Source: an uncultured Clostridia bacterium
GTDB lineage: Bacteria; Bacillota; Clostridia; Christensenellales; CAG-917
Assembly: GCA_944332995.1 (NCBI GenBank)
Contig: CALVKR010000001.1
Span: forward strand, 1 to 64,000
Direction of reading: 5' to 3'
Length of the DNA stretch: 64,000 nucleotides
Shown: piece after piece, positions 25,892 to 34,963 of the stretch
How positions within the stretch are numbered: position 1 is the first letter of the stretch
How the letters are laid out: every line of letters starts with the position of its first letter
Program-made: the position numbers and the translations under genes
The notes under the pieces: generated by a model
Database searches by the model: none
Told to the model about the DNA's origin: nothing
What the model saw: only the letters and a program-made list of their open reading frames with translations

Positions 25892-27325
25892 CTATTTATT
25901 GTTCATCAATACGAAGCCTTCTTTTTTGATAGCATTCATCTCCCCTCTTACGAGGTCGATAAACTCTTTATTGTTTGCAGATTTAACAAGCCTTGTATAA
26001 AGGTTTTCCGTTTGTTCCGCACTGTCGCCGACAGACAAAATTTTGCGGATTGCCCAAACGGCTTCCAGCTCCGATTGACTGAGCAAAAGCTCCTCTTTTC
26101 TCGTTCCGCTCTTTGCAAGGTCGATTGCAGGGAAAATACGTTTTTCGGAAAGACGGCGATCGAGATGTATTTCCATATTGCCCGTGCCTTTAAATTCCTC
26201 GTAAATGACGTCGTCCATTCTGCTACCCGTATCAATCAACGCCGTGGCTATAATCGTAAGGCTTCCGCCGTTTTCAATGTTTCTTGCCGAGCCGAAAAAT
26301 CTTTTTGGGCTGTAGAGCGCACCCGGGTCGATACCGCCTGACAGAGTTCTGCCCGTAGGCGGAATGGTAAGGTTGTAAGCTCTTGCAAGTCTTGTTAAAG
26401 AGTCAAGCAATATAACGACGTCCTTTCCCATTTCGACAAGTCGCTTTGCCCTTTCGAGCAACATTTCAGCAGCTTTTGTATGGTGGTCGGGAAGCTCGTC
26501 GAACGTGGAATAAACCACCTCGCCTTTGATTGACCTTTGCATATCCGTGACTTCTTCCGGGCGCTCGTCGATGAGCAAAACTTTTAAGATAGCGTCCGGA
26601 TAATTTTTTGCAATGGACGAAGCAATCATTTTTAAAAGGGTTGTTTTACCTGCCTTAGGAGGCGAAACAATCATTGCCCTTTGACCTTTTCCGATAGGCG
26701 CAATAAGGTCTATGGCGCGGGTTGCAAAATCGTTTGGCTTATCCGCCATTTCGAGCACGTATCTCTCGTTAGGATAAATGGGGATAAGGTCGTCGAAATT
26801 GGGTCGGGAAAGAAGTTTTTCGGGCGAATCGCCGTTGACTTCCGTCACCGCAAAGATTGAAGGCGGCTTACCCTCTTGCAAAACTCTGGCAACGCCTTTG
26901 ACATAGTCGCCGCTCCTCAAACCGAATTTTTTAATCTTTACGCCGTGGACGTATGCGTCCTTTTCGTTACACTCTCCGTTTTTTATTCTTAAAAAGCCGT
27001 ATCCGTCGGGATTTATTTCAAGGATACCCTCTCTCTCCTCCTCAATGCCGGACGAGTCGTTCATGATTTTCGGAATGGGATTTATTGAAGACGTTTTATA
27101 CGAATCGTCTGTTTCCTCCTGTTCCGTCTTAATCGGTTTAGGCGGTCTGCCCCTCACGGGAGGAGGCGGCAATACTTCCCCGTTGGCAACGGACACAATC
27201 ATATTGACAAGCTCCATTTTATTTTTCTTTGTAGGAGAGGAAATTCCCGCATTTCTGGCAATTGCTCTGATGGCAAAAATATCCATTTGCTCGAGTTCCT
27301 CACGAGTATAACTAATTTGAGACAT
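25892..27325 (-). CDS. rho: Transcription termination factor Rho
   Basis: A 477-residue hexameric RNA helicase that ends transcription at C-rich, unstructured RNA. Residues 1-50 are the Rho N-terminal domain. A Pro/Arg-rich linker with [12 protein letters not shown] follows, then the cold-shock-like RNA-binding domain ([14 protein letters not shown]) and the ATPase core with [12 protein letters not shown] (Walker A), [29 protein letters not shown] and the Q/R-loop region [16 protein letters not shown]. The ATG follows GGAGG. It is probably its own unit with the terminator at 25838-25863. Confidence 0.97.
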
Positions 27326-27446
27326 AATACCTCCGTCAAATTATGTAATAAAATATTAAATTTAAAATCTGATAAACTTTATCGAATTAAGGAAAAAGTA
27401 AATAAATTCAAAGACTGAAAAGCAGTCAAAACTCAGTCGCAGGCGA

Positions 27447-28106
27447 CTAATCGAGTTGAACTTTATCCAAAACTATAACCTTAGTGCTTTCGCCGTCAAA
27501 ATCGGCACGGTCAAACTCAACGGTGTCCGAATCTGCATAAACGACGTCTTCTTCCGGAAACAAGTCAATAAAATCGGAGACCTTATCGATATCCATAATG
27601 GAATCCTTGGTGCGGTAGTGCATCGGAATGACGATATCCGGCATGATTTTATCGACGTATTCTTTAGCTTCAACGGCGTCAATGGTGTATTTACCGCCAA
27701 CCGGGATAAGCAAAATGTTGACAGGCATGATGGTTTCCACCACTCTGATGTTGCACTCCTCTCCTATATCGCCGAGGTGGCAGACTTCAACGCCGTCCAT
27801 TCTGAATTTAAAGATGAGGTTGTCTCCTCTTTTAGTTCCCATATGGTGGTCGTGATAAGACTGAAAACTTTGAATATGAATCCCTTCGACTTCAAAACCT
27901 CCAAGCTCATCGATAACTATGGGGTTTCCGCCTACTTTGGAAACAAGATTGTGATCCGAATGTTTATGGCTTATGGTAACGGCATTCGCATTAACCTTGG
28001 GCATTGCAAAACCAACGACGCTTTCTTCAAAAGGGTCGGTAACGATTGACGTCCCCGTGCTCTCCTCGAGTTTAAAAGAACTATGCCCTAACCACTGAAT
28101 TTTCAT
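27447..28106 (-). CDS. UPF0173 metal-dependent hydrolase (MBL fold)
   Basis: A 219-residue metallo-beta-lactamase-fold protein of the UPF0173 group. It starts with the family-typical IQWLGHSSFKLE and has the metal site SHKHSDHN (HxHxDH), CHLGDIG and IPMHYRT. The substrate is unknown for the family. It is 15 bp downstream of prs on the same strand and is probably cotranscribed. Confidence 0.92.
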   Translation of the reverse strand: MKIQWLGHSSFKLEESTGTSIVTDPFEESVVGFAMPKVNANAVTISHKHSDHNLVSKVGGNPIVIDELGGFEVEGIHIQSFQSYHDHHMGTKRGDNLIFKFRMDGVEVCHLGDIGEECNIRVVETIMPVNILLIPVGGKYTIDAVEAKEYVDKIMPDIVIPMHYRTKDSIMDIDKVSDFIDLFPEEDVVYADSDTVEFDRADFDGESTKVIVLDKVQLD

Positions 28107-28121
28107 ACAAACTCCTGACGG

Positions 28122-29264
28122 TTATTTTTTCAATAAATTTTTAATTTTATCGATAGGGTCAAGCAACTTTCCGACAGACTCGTTAAAATTGCAAGACGCT
28201 ATAATGTATGCTATATATTTTGATAAATCACTTTCAATAAACCAATCGCAGCCGGCAAGTTCGGGAATTCTGTAAGTGAGGTTTGTAGAAACGACTGCCT
28301 CGAACATACCCTCTTCATGCGCTTTATTGAATTTATCGACGCCCTCGGTAAAGAGAGGGAACGTGCACGAAAGGAATATTTTATCCGCACCTTTTTCTTT
28401 TAACTCGGTAGCGAGTTTAATGACCGAATCGCCCGTGGCGATAATGTCGTCGGCAACAAAAATGTTTTTGCCGGAAACCGAGCTGCCTATGTATTCGTGC
28501 GCTATGATAGGATTTCTGCCGTTGACCACTTTGGTATAGTCTCGACGCTTGTAGAACATACCGAGGTCGACGCCGAGAACGGAAGCATAATAAATGTTTC
28601 GTGACATTGCGCCTTCATCGGGTGAAACAACCATAAAGTCGTTGTGCAAGTCAATCTCTGGATATTTTTTCTTTAACGCCTTAAGAATTTGATATGTCGG
28701 GAAGAAGTTGTCAAATCCCATAAGCGGAACGGCATTCTGAACGCGCGGGTCGTGTGCGTCGAACGTGATGATATCCGTAACGCCCATTGCCTTTAATTCC
28801 TGCAACATCATGGCGCAGTCAAGCGACTCCCTGCCGGCTCTGCGGTGCTGTCTGCCACCGTATAAAAGCGGCATGATAACGGTTATACGATAGGGCTTAC
28901 CGGCGCAAGCGCAAATAATCCTTTTTAAATCGGCATAATGTTCGTCGGGCGTGATGGGAATTTGTTTTTCGAACAAATCATAAGTGACGCCGTGATTTCC
29001 TACGTCGCATATGATATAAACGTCTTTACTGCGGACGGTATCGTTTACCATACCCTTTCCGTCGCCCGTAGTGAAACGAGGATAACTTGTGTCTACTATG
29101 AAACTGTCGACGTCGGCATATACTTTCGTACCCGAATCCTTAAACAATTTTACAAGTCGCAAGTCAATTTGTTTTGCAAAGTCCAAAGCTCCTTTAAGTG
29201 CGATAATCGCAAGCGGAGCCGCATTTTTTTGAGCAGAAAATTGTATATCGGTCGTCGGCGTCAT
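28122..29264 (-). CDS. prs: Ribose-phosphate pyrophosphokinase
   Basis: A 380-residue PRPP synthetase that makes 5-phosphoribosyl diphosphate from ribose 5-phosphate and ATP for nucleotide, His and Trp synthesis. It shows YGGRQHRRAGRES, TFDAHDPRVQN and the PRPP-binding loop VADDIIATGDSV. It is longer than the usual form of about 315 residues, in both the N-terminal part and internal loops, matching the long variant seen in some Clostridia and Bacteroidetes. The gene has its own promoter at 29289-29316, with AGGAGG before the ATG. Confidence 0.95.
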   Translation of the reverse strand: MTPTTDIQFSAQKNAAPLAIIALKGALDFAKQIDLRLVKLFKDSGTKVYADVDSFIVDTSYPRFTTGDGKGMVNDTVRSKDVYIICDVGNHGVTYDLFEKQIPITPDEHYADLKRIICACAGKPYRITVIMPLLYGGRQHRRAGRESLDCAMMLQELKAMGVTDIITFDAHDPRVQNAVPLMGFDNFFPTYQILKALKKKYPEIDLHNDFMVVSPDEGAMSRNIYYASVLGVDLGMFYKRRDYTKVVNGRNPIIAHEYIGSSVSGKNIFVADDIIATGDSVIKLATELKEKGADKIFLSCTFPLFTEGVDKFNKAHEEGMFEAVVSTNLTYRIPELAGCDWFIESDLSKYIAYIIASCNFNESVGKLLDPIDKIKNLLKK

Positions 29265-29288
29265 TAGTATCCTCCTGTATTTGTATTC

Positions 29289-29316
29289 ATTATAACATAA
29301 ATTTTTAAATTTTCAA
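29289..29316 (-). promoter_or_regulatory. Promoter of prs
   Basis: On the minus strand TTGAAA (29316-29311) and TATAAT (29294-29289) are 16 bp apart. Confidence 0.7.
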
Positions 29317-29369
29317 GAAATAATTAACTGATTTTAAAAGATATTTAAAACAATTTAAAAATTATACCA

Positions 29370-29398
29370 TTGACTTAATATGACATATATATTATAAT
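29370..29398 (+). promoter_or_regulatory. Promoter of the paralogous membrane-protein operon
   Basis: TTGACT (29370-29375) and TATAAT (29393-29398) with a 17-bp spacer, 32 bp before the first ATG. This is a near-consensus strong promoter. Confidence 0.8.
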
Positions 29399-29430
29399 TA
29401 TTACATATTCAAATTGATAAGGAGCAAATT

Positions 29431-30516
29431 ATGCAAAAAAGAAAACTATTTAACATTCTTCGCGTTATATGCTATTGCTTAGGTTTTCCGCTTTTATTTC
29501 TTATCGGTCTGATTGCCTCAATGCCGTTTTTCGGTGAACCGGTTTACGCCGATTCATGCGCTAACGGCATTTTGATTTTACTCGGCATTTGGGCCATAGT
29601 GGAAATCGTTCGCTTCAGCATGAAATTTGCGTTGAGAAAACACCGTCTGCTTCAGACAATCATCACAATCATAGTAGCAATCGTCGTTATGGCTGTTCCT
29701 ATGTTTATCGCCGATGCCGTTCTCGGAAAGCAGTACAAACAAATCGTTGAAGACAACAAAACCATCACCGTTTCCTTCAACGAAGGCGAAAGAATTTCCG
29801 CAGCAGGAACGTCTGTGACACTTACGGAAGATATTACCGTTCCCGCAGAATACTTCAACGCAGGTTTTACTACTGAGAACTATGAGTATCAGGTAGGCTG
29901 GTATAACGTCGTTACCAACACCTCACGTCGGGACAAAGCACTTTACTGGCAGCTCATTTACGATACCGATATCTATATGTATAAAACCGGCATCAACAAA
30001 TGGCTCAACTTTAACGACTACAAATTCAACAATTACGAAGAAGATACCGGTGACGGTCTCGCTCTCGGCGTAGCTTCGACTATCAAAAACGAAATTAACA
30101 CTCTTAAAAAAGTCGTCGCTGTTTACTATTATCAAGACATTAACGATTTGCCTATATCGGAAGAACTTCAATCCGCTTACGACCTCGCATGCGGAAAGAC
30201 AAGCACAAGCGAAATAATCGCTTCGGGAATGTCGCTTTCTTCTCTCTATCAGCTTCAGCTCGAATTAGAGACAAGGCCTTCGCTCTATCCCTTCCTCGCT
30301 GTCAGAAATTATATCTACATCTTCATAGGAATCGTTGCTTTCGTTTATATTCTCATCTACTTCCTTAACGAAAAATATTTAGCTTGCAAGCCCGACGAAC
30401 TCGTTCAGTTTAAATTCTTGAACAAATTCAGAAAGGAAAACGGAGACCCCACTCCCGAAGCTAAATCCGCTAATGAAGCAAAATCTAAAAAGAAGGAGGA
30501 AAAAGGTAATGAATAA
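29431..30516 (+). CDS. Membrane protein of unknown function, paralogue 1
   Basis: A 361-residue protein with three N-terminal membrane segments (about 9-31, 45-61 and 73-95), a probable extracytoplasmic domain (about 97-285), one further segment (about 290-310) and a charged cytoplasmic tail rich in Lys and Glu. The first segment carries the phrase YCLGFPLLFLIGLIASMPFF, matched by YAIGFPILLIIAIVYSLPYF in the next protein, so the two are paralogues. No family is recognised. The codons favour C-ending forms (AAC, CTC, TTC), unlike neighbours, and suggest high expression. Overlaps the next gene by 8 bp. Confidence 0.85.
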   Translation: MQKRKLFNILRVICYCLGFPLLFLIGLIASMPFFGEPVYADSCANGILILLGIWAIVEIVRFSMKFALRKHRLLQTIITIIVAIVVMAVPMFIADAVLGKQYKQIVEDNKTITVSFNEGERISAAGTSVTLTEDITVPAEYFNAGFTTENYEYQVGWYNVVTNTSRRDKALYWQLIYDTDIYMYKTGINKWLNFNDYKFNNYEEDTGDGLALGVASTIKNEINTLKKVVAVYYYQDINDLPISEELQSAYDLACGKTSTSEIIASGMSLSSLYQLQLELETRPSLYPFLAVRNYIYIFIGIVAFVYILIYFLNEKYLACKPDELVQFKFLNKFRKENGDPTPEAKSANEAKSKKKEEKGNE

Positions 30517-31981
30517 AAAAGCATTGATGATTGCATTAGACGTCATACTTTATGCTATCGGTTTTCCCATTCTTTTGATTATTGCGATAGTGTATAGTCT
30601 CCCCTATTTTGAAACTAACCTTTACGGTCTCACTGCAGCTACGCCTATTATATTAGTTGTGCTTGCATGGCTTGCAACAGGCGTTTCCGAACTTGCAATT
30701 CGTCTTGTCGCCAAAAAGAAAATGGACGCAGGCGCCTATCCCGACAAGAAAAAGGCATTAAGAAGCCAAGGCATAAGAATGATTATTGCAATCTTCTGCT
30801 GCCTTACTATCTTCACCTGCTTTTTGGATATCGTTCTTCCCCCCTTGCTCAATACGGCAACGCAGGGAACTATCCTTTACGAAGATATCCTTTTAGACGA
30901 CGAGTCGCAAAACGAGGCACAGCAAGACCTCTTCAAAACCTTTGTAACTTGGAACGTTGAAAACGGCAACCTCAACAAGAAAACTCTTTCCGAAATGGAA
31001 TCATTCTACGCCGCTCAAGGTCAGAACGAAGCATACATCAATCAAATGAAGACATTCTTTATCAATGCTTCAAAAGACTACCGTTCAAATGATAGTTCGT
31101 TGTCCGGCTGGGAAAGATACGGCTTTAATGCAGAGGGCGGCTTTGCCGAAACATGCAAAGATAAAATTATAAACTCCTATCTTTCGGAAGCCATGAACAA
31201 CGAAGAAATTCAAACCGTTCTCAAAAAGTGCTTCAACACAATCGATGCGGCATATCAAACGTTTGACCCTCTTACGATTGAGCTTGCGCTTGAAAACCTT
31301 GACTATCTCTTTAACTACAATCACGATTGGCTCAACGATCTCATGTTGGTTATCTACGGAGATGAAAACGGTGAAGCAAACAAGGATACTCCCGGAGATT
31401 TAACTACCGGCGACTACCTCTATATGTGGTGTATAGTCGACCTTCTCGGCGAAGTACCCAGCGACCCGATGGTTGAGGACAATATGAGCTTGCTCGAACC
31501 GATGTGGAAGTTGTATACCGATAAAAACGGCGTTAAAACAACCCACAACGAAGCCCGTGGCGTTCTTGACTACATGAGCATGGCTTGGATGGACAGCATC
31601 ACGCTTTTGGGTATCGTTTCCGTCACTAAGATGCGTTTGTGGTTCTACTTCTTCAGCGCAATTATCATGGTGGCAGGTCTTGTAAGATACTTCATCGTCC
31701 GCCCCTCCTACTACGGAGTATCGCTTTGCGGCTGCACGGCTTGCGGCAACGGCGACTCAACAGACGGTAACGGAGAGGAGGCAGTCTTTGAAGAAAATTT
31801 TGCCGAAAACGCATCAGACGATAAAAAGGCAAAAAAGGCTAAAAAGTCAAACAAAAAGAACGCCGAAACCGTAGAGACGGAACAAAATACAGAGGCTGTC
31901 GAATCCGAAAAAACCGAAGAAACAGCTCAAAATGAAGTCACGGAAACCTCCGAAACTTCTTTAGAAAACCCTCAAGAATAA
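30509..31981 (+). CDS. Membrane protein of unknown function, paralogue 2
   Basis: A 490-residue protein with the same plan as its upstream paralogue: three N-terminal membrane segments (about 5-28, 36-58 and 83-104), a long extracytoplasmic part (about 105-375), a segment at about 382-402 and a cytoplasmic tail. The tail holds a Cys cluster LCGCTACGNG and then a Lys-rich and Glu/Thr-rich low-complexity end. The start at 30509 is chosen over an upstream in-frame ATG (30473) because AAGGAGG lies just ahead of it. The operon ends at a strong terminator. The Cys cluster could bind metal, but nothing proves it. Confidence 0.85.
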   Translation: MNKKALMIALDVILYAIGFPILLIIAIVYSLPYFETNLYGLTAATPIILVVLAWLATGVSELAIRLVAKKKMDAGAYPDKKKALRSQGIRMIIAIFCCLTIFTCFLDIVLPPLLNTATQGTILYEDILLDDESQNEAQQDLFKTFVTWNVENGNLNKKTLSEMESFYAAQGQNEAYINQMKTFFINASKDYRSNDSSLSGWERYGFNAEGGFAETCKDKIINSYLSEAMNNEEIQTVLKKCFNTIDAAYQTFDPLTIELALENLDYLFNYNHDWLNDLMLVIYGDENGEANKDTPGDLTTGDYLYMWCIVDLLGEVPSDPMVEDNMSLLEPMWKLYTDKNGVKTTHNEARGVLDYMSMAWMDSITLLGIVSVTKMRLWFYFFSAIIMVAGLVRYFIVRPSYYGVSLCGCTACGNGDSTDGNGEEAVFEENFAENASDDKKAKKAKKSNKKNAETVETEQNTEAVESEKTEETAQNEVTETSETSLENPQE

Positions 31982-31995
31982 CTTTACGTTATAAC

Positions 31996-32026
31996 AAAAA
32001 AAGGCTCGCTATTGCGGGCCTTTTTT
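31996..32026 (+). terminator. Terminator of the membrane-protein operon
   Basis: Stem GGCTCGC/GCGGGCC (one T-G wobble), loop TATT, flanked by seven A and six T. It may also serve the opposite strand. Confidence 0.9.
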
Positions 32027-32088
32027 ATTCGTAATAAATTTAACTAAAGGTAAAACTAAAAAATTTTTAAACAAAAACAAAAAATAAT

Positions 32089-33174
32089 TTATTGGAAAAG
32101 GTCAACCAAAATTTTATTCATAATCATAAATCCCTTATCGTTTAAAGATATGCGGTCACCTTTTATATAAAAATAATTTTTATATTTATCATAAAAATCA
32201 GGCTTATTTAATATTTCTTCTTTTAAAACGCCATGAGAGGTTCTGAGGGCGAGCATTATCTTTTCAAGCTCTATGTCACTTTCGCTTAAAACCTCTTTGA
32301 ATTCCCTTTTCAACGGGTCTGAAACGTATTCATCGAAAGCGGATTGATTTCCGTATCGCTCATTGCCGATAAGAGAGTGAGCGGAAAGACCGAAACCGTA
32401 ATAAGGCTTTCTGACCCAATATCCGAGGTTGTGTTTGGCCTCATATCCCCTTTTGCAGAAATTAGAAACTTCATAACGTTTATATCCTAAACTTTTTAGT
32501 TTTGCTATAGCAAACGAAAACAAGTCGGCAAGTTCGTCGTCGGTGGGCAACTTAATATCGTTTTTTATATATCTGTCGTAAAAAGGAGTACCTTCCTCGA
32601 TTTGAAGCATATAACAGGATAGGTGCTTTACGCCCGAAGCGCTTAAATACTCGATATCTTTAGCCACACTTTCTGCCGACTGTCCTACGAGCATAATATC
32701 ACAGCTTACGTTATCGAAAAACTCAAGCGCCGTTTTAACTGCGCTCTTTGCCATATCCGAGTCGTGCACTCTGCCAAGGAATTTCAAAACGTCGTCACTT
32801 AAACTTTGCACTCCTATACTGAGCCTGTCAAAGCCTGCGCTTTTGTATGCTAAAAGTTTGCTCTTTGTTATAGATTCCGGATTTGCTTCTATTGTGGCTT
32901 CCGACAAGTCAAAGTCAAATTTATTTCTTAGCAAATTAAAAACGTCGACGATATATCTTTCGTCGACAAAGGACGGCGTACCGCCACCGAAATAAACAGT
33001 ATCGATTGTTTTGCAAACGGCGTCAGTGTTTAAAATTTCCTTTTTTAAAGCGTTAAAATATTCTTCCGAACGCTCCGGGTAAGGAAAAGATTTAAAATCG
33101 CAATAATTGCATTTACGTTTACAAAAAGGGATATGAACGTAAATCCCTGCCCTTTCGGTAAAATTATTCGTCAT
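32089..33174 (-). CDS. hemW: HemW-like radical SAM protein
   Basis: A 361-residue radical SAM enzyme related to oxygen-independent coproporphyrinogen oxidase, with the cluster motif CKRKCNYC (CxxxCxxC) in [18 protein letters not shown], then VYFGGGTPS and [19 protein letters not shown]. HemW proteins are heme chaperones rather than coproporphyrinogen oxidases; the close link to lepA supports HemW. The start lies in the lepA end (11-bp overlap) without a strong ribosome site, so coupling is likely. Confidence 0.92.
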
Positions 33175-34963
33175 CGAGTTTTAAAATGCTGGCAAAAGCC
33201 TCGGAAGGCACTTCAACGCTGCCCACCTTTCTCATTCTCTTTTTGCCTTCCTTTTGTTTTTCCAAAAGTTTTTTCTTTCTCGTTATATCACCGCCGTAGC
33301 ACTTGGCGAGAACGTCTTTTCTCACTGCTTTGACAGTTTCTCTTGCAATAACCTTACCGCCTATAGCCGCCTGAATGGGAACCTCAAAAAGCTGTCTGGG
33401 GATAACTTCCTTTAGCTTTTCGGCAAGTTTTCTGCCACGCGAATACGCTTTGTCTTTATGAACGATAAGACTGAGTGCGTCACAGACGTCGCCGTTTATC
33501 AAAAGGTCGAGCTTAACAAGGTCGCTCTTTTCATAACCTTTAATTTCATAATCCATGCTGGCATAACCTTTCGTGCGAGATTTAAGATTGTCGAAAAAGT
33601 CGTAAATTATCTCGTTTAAAGGTATATCGTAAGTTATAACAACCCTTGTTGGATCTATATAAGACATATCTATAAACACGCCTCTTTTGTCTTGGCAAAG
33701 CTCCATAATGGGACCGACAAACTCGGGCGGAGTGTAAAGGCTCGCCTTTACGACAGGCTCTTCGATATAATCGATTTCGGAAGCGTTTGGAAGCATACAA
33801 GGATTTTCGACTATAATTTCCTCGCCGTTAGTCTTTTTCACTCTGTAAGAAACGCTGGGAGCGGTTGTAACCAAATCGAGGTCAAATTCTCTCTCTAACC
33901 TTTCCTCAATGATTTCCATGTGCAATAGACCCAAAAATCCGCACCTGAAACCGAAACCGAGAGCGAGCGAGTTTTCGATTTCAAACTGAAGGGAAGCGTC
34001 GTTTAGCTGAAGTTTCATCAACGCCTCTTTAAGCTCGTCGTATTTAGAACCGTCGGCAGGAAATATACCTGCGTAGACCATTGGCTGAACCTTTTTATAG
34101 CCCGGCAGAGGCTCTGAGGTTGGATTATTTGCAAGCGTTATCGTATCGCCGACGGCGGTATCTACAACGTTTTTAATGCTTGCGGCGATATATCCGACTT
34201 CACCGGCAGAAAGAGATTCCGTCGGTATCATCTTAGGCGAAAATACGCCGACCTCGACGACTTCATATTCTTTCCCCGTCGAAAACATTTTGATTTTATC
34301 GTGCGCCTTAACCCTGCCGTCGAAAATCCTGACCATACTGATTGCGCCTCGATAGTTATCGTAAAAACTATCGAAGATAAGCGCTTTAAGCGGTTTGTTT
34401 TCGTCGCCTTTGGGCGCAGGAAGTTTCGTTACGATGGCGTCAAGCAATTCGTCCACGCCAATGCCCTCTTTGGCGCTGATTAACGGACAGCCGTTTGTAT
34501 CAAGACCTATTATATCTTCGATTTCAAGTTTGACTTTATCAACTTCCGCCGAGGGAAGGTCGATTTTGTTTATAACGGGCATAATTTCCAAATCGTGGTC
34601 GAGCGCAAGATAAACGTTTGTTAAAGTTTGCGCCTCAACGCCTTGGGTGGCATCAACAACCAAAAGAGCGCCCTCACAGGCAGCGAGAGAGCGTGAAACC
34701 TCGTAAGTAAAGTCAACGTGTCCGGGAGTATCGATAAGATTTAAAACGTATTCCGTGCCGTTGTGCTCATAAAACATTTTGCACGTCTGAAGTTTTATGG
34801 TGATACCCCTCTCCTTTTCAATATCCATATTGTCAAGGAGCTGTTCGCTCATATCTCGCTCGGCAACCGTTCCCGTTTTCTCAATCAGACGGTCGGCAAG
34901 CGTGCTCTTACCGTGGTCTATATGCGCAATTATGGAAAAGTTTCTGATGTGATTTTTGTCCAA
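33164..34963 (-). CDS. lepA: Elongation factor 4 (LepA)
   Basis: A 599-residue translational GTPase acting on the ribosome. G motifs are [41 protein letters not shown] and SAKEG. The LepA-specific C-terminal domain ends in [17 protein letters not shown]. Length is standard. It lies upstream of hemW in the usual Firmicutes order. The region 34964-35046 separates it from the divergent LUD gene. Confidence 0.97.

Follow-up and report, generated by a model that had tools for sequence, protein, structure and literature searches.

Locus and genome setting

The window (the whole stretch of DNA analyzed, 64,000 nucleotides from an uncultured Clostridia bacterium) belongs to a genome of 1.54 Mb in 12 contigs that is 98.7% complete. 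It carries two overlapping genes, here called A and B, located between a divergent prs and two convergent genes which we take to be hemW and lepA. The prs call comes from Pfam, and the hemW frame has a Radical_SAM domain (Pfam). Gene A (29431..30516, + strand) encodes 361 aa and gene B (30509..31981, + strand) encodes 490 aa; both are described from open reading frames, hydropathy, AlphaFold2 models and 36-row alignments, and B also from conservation by region. The start of B is most likely the ATG at 30509, because a ribosome-binding site AAGGAGG is read from the sequence within gene A at 30493..30499 (+ strand), with the ATG 9 nt past it. A and B overlap by 8 nt with this start; an alternative mechanical start at 30473 (502 aa) is less likely. 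Searched against its own genome, A matches only A and B.

A promoter of the sigma-A/sigma-70 type, TTGACT-17-TATAAT (29370..29398, + strand), precedes A and agrees with the consensus at 11 of 12 positions. A score of 11 alone is modest, as 2.7% of shuffled versions of the 150 nt upstream (1000 plain shuffles) attain it, and promoter-like sites in the region show no excess over shuffles (12 vs. a shuffle mean of 10.3). The three nearest relatives (L062, L063, and L064) have the exact consensus TTGACA-17-TATAAT upstream of A. Among 55 loci in which the space upstream of A is free, 26 have a score of at least 11 there, compared with 34 of 237 other genes, and scores of at least 10 occur in 47 of 74 loci, compared with 7% of plain shuffles. 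The ribosome-binding site of A, AAGGAG (29419..29424, + strand), also read from the sequence, is kept in L062 and L063 and is AGGAG in L064. Downstream of B lies an intrinsic terminator hairpin (31997..32026, + strand) of 13 pairs with a loop of 4 and a T-run in its 3' arm, which folds with its flanks (31985-32035) at -20.3 kcal/mol (z -5.97). It is not on the list of a simple terminator scan, probably because the T-run pairs with an A-run. The near-consensus promoter, good ribosome sites and strong terminator described in an earlier note on this DNA are thus all recovered. No Rfam match to an RNA leader is found in 27000-34000.

Predicted expression and rate of change

The C-ending codon preference noted earlier is seen in 0.62 and 0.63 of the NNY two-fold codons of A and B. 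Codon use of both genes resembles that of ribosomal genes: with each genome's own ribosomal-protein cluster as reference, the codon adaptation of A and B exceeds that of all 40 other window ORFs of at least 150 aa, these ORFs being mechanical and possibly including some false ones. Across 12 further genomes, A exceeds 94 and B 106 of the 118 ORFs of the surrounding stretches. G005 is an exception, with A exceeding none of 11 local ORFs, and the lead is smaller in G014 (6 and 7 of 8) and G090 (8 and 8 of 11). Codon use and promoter conservation together support the prediction of strong transcription and translation, in line with the high expression proposed earlier. Both proteins diverge faster than most neighbor genes, with identities to the closest relative of 62% (A) and 56% (B), compared with 73-88% for rho, mbl, prs, and lepA; the value for hemW is 50%.

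Protein anatomy and conservation

Both proteins are predicted to have three N-terminal membrane helices and one C-terminal helix, with a large outer domain ahead of the last. In A, the predicted helices span approximately residues 3-33, 45-67, 72-98, and 291-318, the outer domain approximately 99-280 and the cytoplasmic tail 319-361. Those of B span approximately 3-36, 40-60, 86-112, and 373-401, with an outer domain at 113-370 and a charged, low-confidence tail at 402-490. In hydropathy and charge, a K/R-rich loop precedes helix 3, the outer domain is D/E-rich, and the tails are mixed or acidic. AlphaFold2 models, built on shallow alignments (15 and 14 rows) and of moderate quality, contain four long helices in each protein, in agreement with hydropathy (B: pLDDT 76.1, pTM 0.69; A: pLDDT 78.3, pTM 0.69); the last 83 residues of B have pLDDT < 50. 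By a crude count, four hydrophobic peaks are present in 63 of 74 B relatives and 50 of 75 A relatives, and five in 9 B and 18 A relatives.

A and B are homologous. Their residues 1-70 are 29% identical (E 3e-10), and hhalign of 36 A against 36 B proteins aligns the N-terminal module and the adjoining part of the outer domain with a probability of 98.8 (E 1.2e-16). Visual comparison suggests that the C-terminal helix regions, outside the hhalign extent, are alike as well: the window's A reads AVRNYIYIF, and B relatives have SLRNWLYI-like sequences. These alignments and the predicted topology agree with the earlier note, which had called the two proteins paralogs with a common N-terminal membrane module and overall topology.

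Conservation of B peaks at residues 345-372, just before the last helix, where the majority fraction over 15 rows is 0.77, compared with 0.46 across the entire outer domain; this part includes the motif RGVLDYMSMAW at 350-360. Other conserved positions of B are T118, T121, E125, D126, N149, and G153, the first four of which cluster past helix 3. The tails are hardly conserved (majority fraction 0.23 in B, 0.18 in A). No histidine or cysteine reaches 85% conservation in A or B, and no set of residues resembling a catalytic site was noticed by eye among the conserved positions. Charged residues conserved at 85% in or next to the helices sit at helix ends (D107, R376, and R398 in B; D95 and R292 in A), and other conserved charged residues lie outside the helices. 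The earlier note had also pointed to a CGCTAC cluster and a charged tail in B. Both exist, the cluster at residues 407-412; it is found in 1 of 36 aligned B proteins and was dropped as a functional feature.

Pairing, fusion, and neighboring genes

Linkage was followed in 80 stretches from 77 genomes, picked for a match to A or B. A is followed by B on the same strand in 73 of them, the two are fused in one frame in three, A stands alone in two and B in one, and one stretch has no real hit. Each of these three lone genes is no more than 125 nt from the end of its contig, so that independent occurrence of either gene is not seen. The gap is at most 14 nt in 72 of the 73 pairs, overlaps included (39 pairs overlap, by mechanical start); in G040 it is 423 nt, with ambiguous residues there. 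In named records, several of which are the same contigs as other stretches and hence not independent, A precedes 13 of 14 B genes, and the 14th B starts 60 nt from a contig end. Proteins of the 73 pairs range from 265 to 1093 aa (A) and from 379 to 965 aa (B), the A of 265 aa (L163) being cut by a contig end. Their lengths covary (Spearman 0.78, n = 73, uncorrected for relatedness).

The fused frames encode 1344, 1333, and 1124 aa, and in them a charged stretch links the last helix of A to the first helix of B, which places both joined ends on the same side of the membrane, the cytoplasm by the charge rule. One fused frame (G032) begins at a contig end; this genome has one fused and one separate pair (L182 and L183) on two contigs, each starting 13 nt from the contig start. 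G006, an f1 genome, has two pairs (L065 and L096), the second followed by a large gene of the type described below for f13, which suggests transfer or assembly contamination.

Neighbor genes are common to near relatives only in the comparison of loci, and constant neighbors were rejected since none extends beyond these. A large gene lies directly 3' of the pair in five f13-type stretches (L081, L082, L096, L148, and L151) and is absent from the others, so a third gene as a general part of the pair was also discarded. In L082 (10408-14331), this gene encodes 1307 aa with a lipoprotein-like signal and, as the one tested, has no Pfam match; in L151 it is cut by a contig end. In one genus, three loci (L171, L172, and L176) have ABC-ATPase cluster genes upstream of the pair, at a distance of approximately 1.9 kb in L171 and L176.

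Taxonomic distribution

Among 120 relatives searched, A matched 44 and B 46. A or B finds a match in 40 of the 42 other genomes of the window's family; the remaining two are 54% and 83% complete. Order- and class-wide counts come from the B profile. At E 0.001 it matches 74 of 396 genomes of the order, 68 of them strongly (E 1.6e-41 or better, the window's own included), and these 68 fall in four families (f1, f13, f16, and f24). The other six (G055, G174, G214, G221, G254, and G256) match no more of the model than its tail or a segment the size of one helix and were set aside. For the 391 genomes sampled across the class, the only strong match is the window's own, and three of the four hits (G055, G667, and G771) were set aside on the same grounds. 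An A hit in G093 (E 0.0016) was likewise put aside, having no profile support. The 14 named records are Clostridia, Clostridiales or Christensenella MAGs. The pair is lineage-restricted in these samples: nearly every genome of one family, whose members are mostly uncultured Clostridia, carries it, and three further families have it as well.

Spo0A, present in 20 of 22 pair-bearing genomes and in 17 of the 20 that lack the pair, is uninformative on a link to sporulation. SLH domains are confined to a single genome of 42, which lacks the pair, and are likewise uninformative for surface-layer replacement.

Comparison with known families and folds

The window's A and B have no match above the curated cut-offs of Pfam and NCBIfam. 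The best PHROGs match is at E 0.067 for A with none for B, and PADLOC gives none at E 0.1. With Pfam at E 1, the 36 A and 36 B proteins give scattered hits, each to at most 5 of 36 members (best 25 of 79 and 57 families). Among the families listed, the best hits for B relatives are AI-2E_transport (4e-6, 2/36), Selenoprotein_S (9e-5, 1/36), and SUR7 (2.3e-4, 2/36), and for A relatives YLATT (0.0022). Two candidates for A were rejected: the Yip1 domain (PF04893; 18.2 bits over residues 6-88, cut-off 28.6; 2/36 A proteins at E 1, best 0.0024 among the families listed) and Sigma_reg_N (PF13800; 15 bits, gathering cut-off 26.3). PDB sequence profiles give ZipA at E 2e-4 on the tail of the B profile and otherwise nothing better than 0.04. 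Foldseek against PDB folds gives nothing under E 1 (best chain for A, E 1.1), and VIA-align gives no Z > 7.0, although absence from the VIA-align list excludes nothing. The statement of the earlier note that no known family is apparent stands, with nothing convincing in any of these libraries. No publication on the pair emerged from searches of open full texts. Novelty here means no sequence-family or fold match in the libraries searched; no new mechanism or fold is claimed.

Tetraspanins, membrane organizers of eukaryotes, have four membrane helices with both ends in the cytoplasm, a short first and a large second outer loop, and a CCG signature with further conserved cysteines in the large loop. 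The predicted topology of A and B is the same, with the large loop between helices 3 and 4 and the ends inside, but no cysteine is conserved at 85% and the CCG signature is consequently lacking; no tetraspanin match for A, B or their relatives is among the families listed. Claudin-like folds align with A in VIA-align at Z values that do not rise above noise for bundles of helices (a chain containing stargazin, Z 7.0, rmsd 5.7, 134 aligned; CLF_4, a designed claudin fold, Z 6.2, rmsd 5.9, 141 aligned). In claudins, however, the large loop is the first, and Claudin/SUR7 (PF06687) is not among the matches of the window's A and B at E 10, where weak matches can be filtered out. In comparisons of B with the fold of Tweety homologs (TTYH), the values are VIA-align Z 6.0, rmsd 4.5 and 112 aligned for TTYH1 and Foldseek E 2.8 for TTYH2. 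In their modeled topology, A and B resemble tetraspanins or claudin-like organizers and are not filed as members of either.

MreC (PF04085) is a membrane-anchored envelope protein of wall elongation with an outer domain, as is predicted for A and B, but it has one membrane helix compared with the four predicted here. The MreC model, run against the entire genome of the window including A and B, gives no match at E 0.001. Of the genomes tested for MreC, none of the 22 that have the pair and 10 of the 20 that lack it gave a match. An MreB-like frame of MreB size (303-389 aa) is present in 20 of the 22 pair-bearing genomes. Two strong MreB matches stand in tandem in the window's genome (G000:C4:98911-100969; E 1e-115 and 1e-111), which also has a divergent one at C3, and the 21 other pair-bearing genomes tested have MreB matches no better than E 1e-71. 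In G016 (C44, approximately 103995-104339, minus strand), an MreB-matching frame is open for 24,137 codons, a giant gene of approximately 72 kb if real, in a 1.6-Mb genome.

A LepA tree was built for 40 of the 42 chosen genomes, two being left out with no match at E 1e-100. It has a deep split (support 100/98), with MreC in 10 of 11 rows on one side and 0 of 29 on the other. All 20 pair-bearing rows are on the MreC-less side, as are 9 of the 10 rows with neither MreC nor the pair. The pair is not found in 9 of the 29 genomes of this part of the tree and is thus not indispensable there. Its history takes three changes on this tree, the bootstrap of which is unsettled, and is compatible with a single origin or several.

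Interpretation

A and B represent a genuine family of membrane proteins that lacks annotation, is lineage-restricted, occurs as an obligate pair and is probably abundant. Their tight linkage, the overlap of their genes and the naturally fused frames suggest that they are subunits of a single complex, and an obligate membrane complex of A and B is likely. The fuller reading starts from computed features, namely the homology of A and B, their close linkage and fusions, the predicted topology, the conserved signs of strong expression and the restriction to four families. From these we infer that A and B may form an abundant integral-membrane complex acting as a structural scaffold of the envelope; complex, ratio, abundance and role are all part of this inferred layer, and the reading as a whole is tentative, with somewhat less than an even chance of being right. 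The term "envelope system" used in the earlier note is likewise derived from topology.

The two subunits would have been born by duplication and would be co-produced from overlapping or abutting genes, probably in a 1:1 ratio and in large amounts. Each would make four membrane passes, its two ends lying in the cytoplasm and its single large outer domain between helices 3 and 4. They would probably pair via their membrane helices and the conserved outer motifs next to the membrane, while the outer domains, very variable in length, would extend into the wall or surface layer and the charged tails into the cytoplasm. The most likely job would be structural, that of an abundant scaffold or tether organizing the envelope, and not that of an enzyme or pump. 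Predicted abundance together with the lack of signs of a pump, an enzyme or a constant partner makes a scaffold the likeliest role, weakly indicated as it is what remains when no enzyme or pump signs are seen by eye or in library searches.

Many transporters are membrane complexes of two subunits encoded by paralogous genes, and the eight helices of a pair might form the path or substrate-handling unit of a transporter, channel or export complex. The large downstream gene of the five f13-type loci and the ABC-ATPase cluster genes of one genus would fit such a function, yet no ATPase or energizing gene accompanies the pair across genera, the conserved charged residues are at helix ends, and the window's A and B pass no transporter-family cut-off (AI-2E_transport being confined to the two B relatives above); this reading is considered unlikely. 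Alternatively, the pair might serve other surface proteins as an assembly factor or membrane chaperone required in large amounts. The predicted high expression, an outer domain next to the membrane and the same large downstream gene would agree with this. No client gene is constant, however, neighbors being common to near relatives only, and a chaperone is quite unlikely. It is improbable, too, that A and B are a two-subunit receptor or signal relay that senses with its outer domains and relays through its cytoplasmic tails. Large, fast-changing outer domains, charged tails and the weak A hit to Sigma_reg_N agree with this idea, but the tails are hardly conserved, no signaling domain exceeds its cut-off in the window's A or B, and codon use at the ribosomal level is unusual for a receptor.

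Fast-evolving membrane proteins of unknown function sometimes belong to mobile or phage-related exclusion or defense, and A has a sub-threshold hit to the ExcA model (8.9 bits vs. 100). A surface exclusion or defense pair, already disfavored, is nevertheless hardly credible given the PHROGs and PADLOC results, the position of a single pair between housekeeping genes, and its presence in nearly all other genomes of the family. The pair could also have arisen in this lineage to replace part of the machinery of wall elongation, as an abundant scaffold linking cytoplasm to wall synthesis in a clade that mostly retains an MreB-like gene and has no MreC. Support for this is circumstantial, and the anticorrelation with MreC is largely explained by one split of the LepA tree; as MreC tracks this split and pairless rows lack MreC as well, the data allow the idea of a substitute and do not demand it, and it is regarded as very improbable.

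An abundant structural scaffold thus remains the favored, tentative role for the A/B complex. If A and B are a main component of the envelope, the cell surface of these bacteria would be built partly from undescribed parts, and the pair would offer a handle for surface proteomics or labeling.
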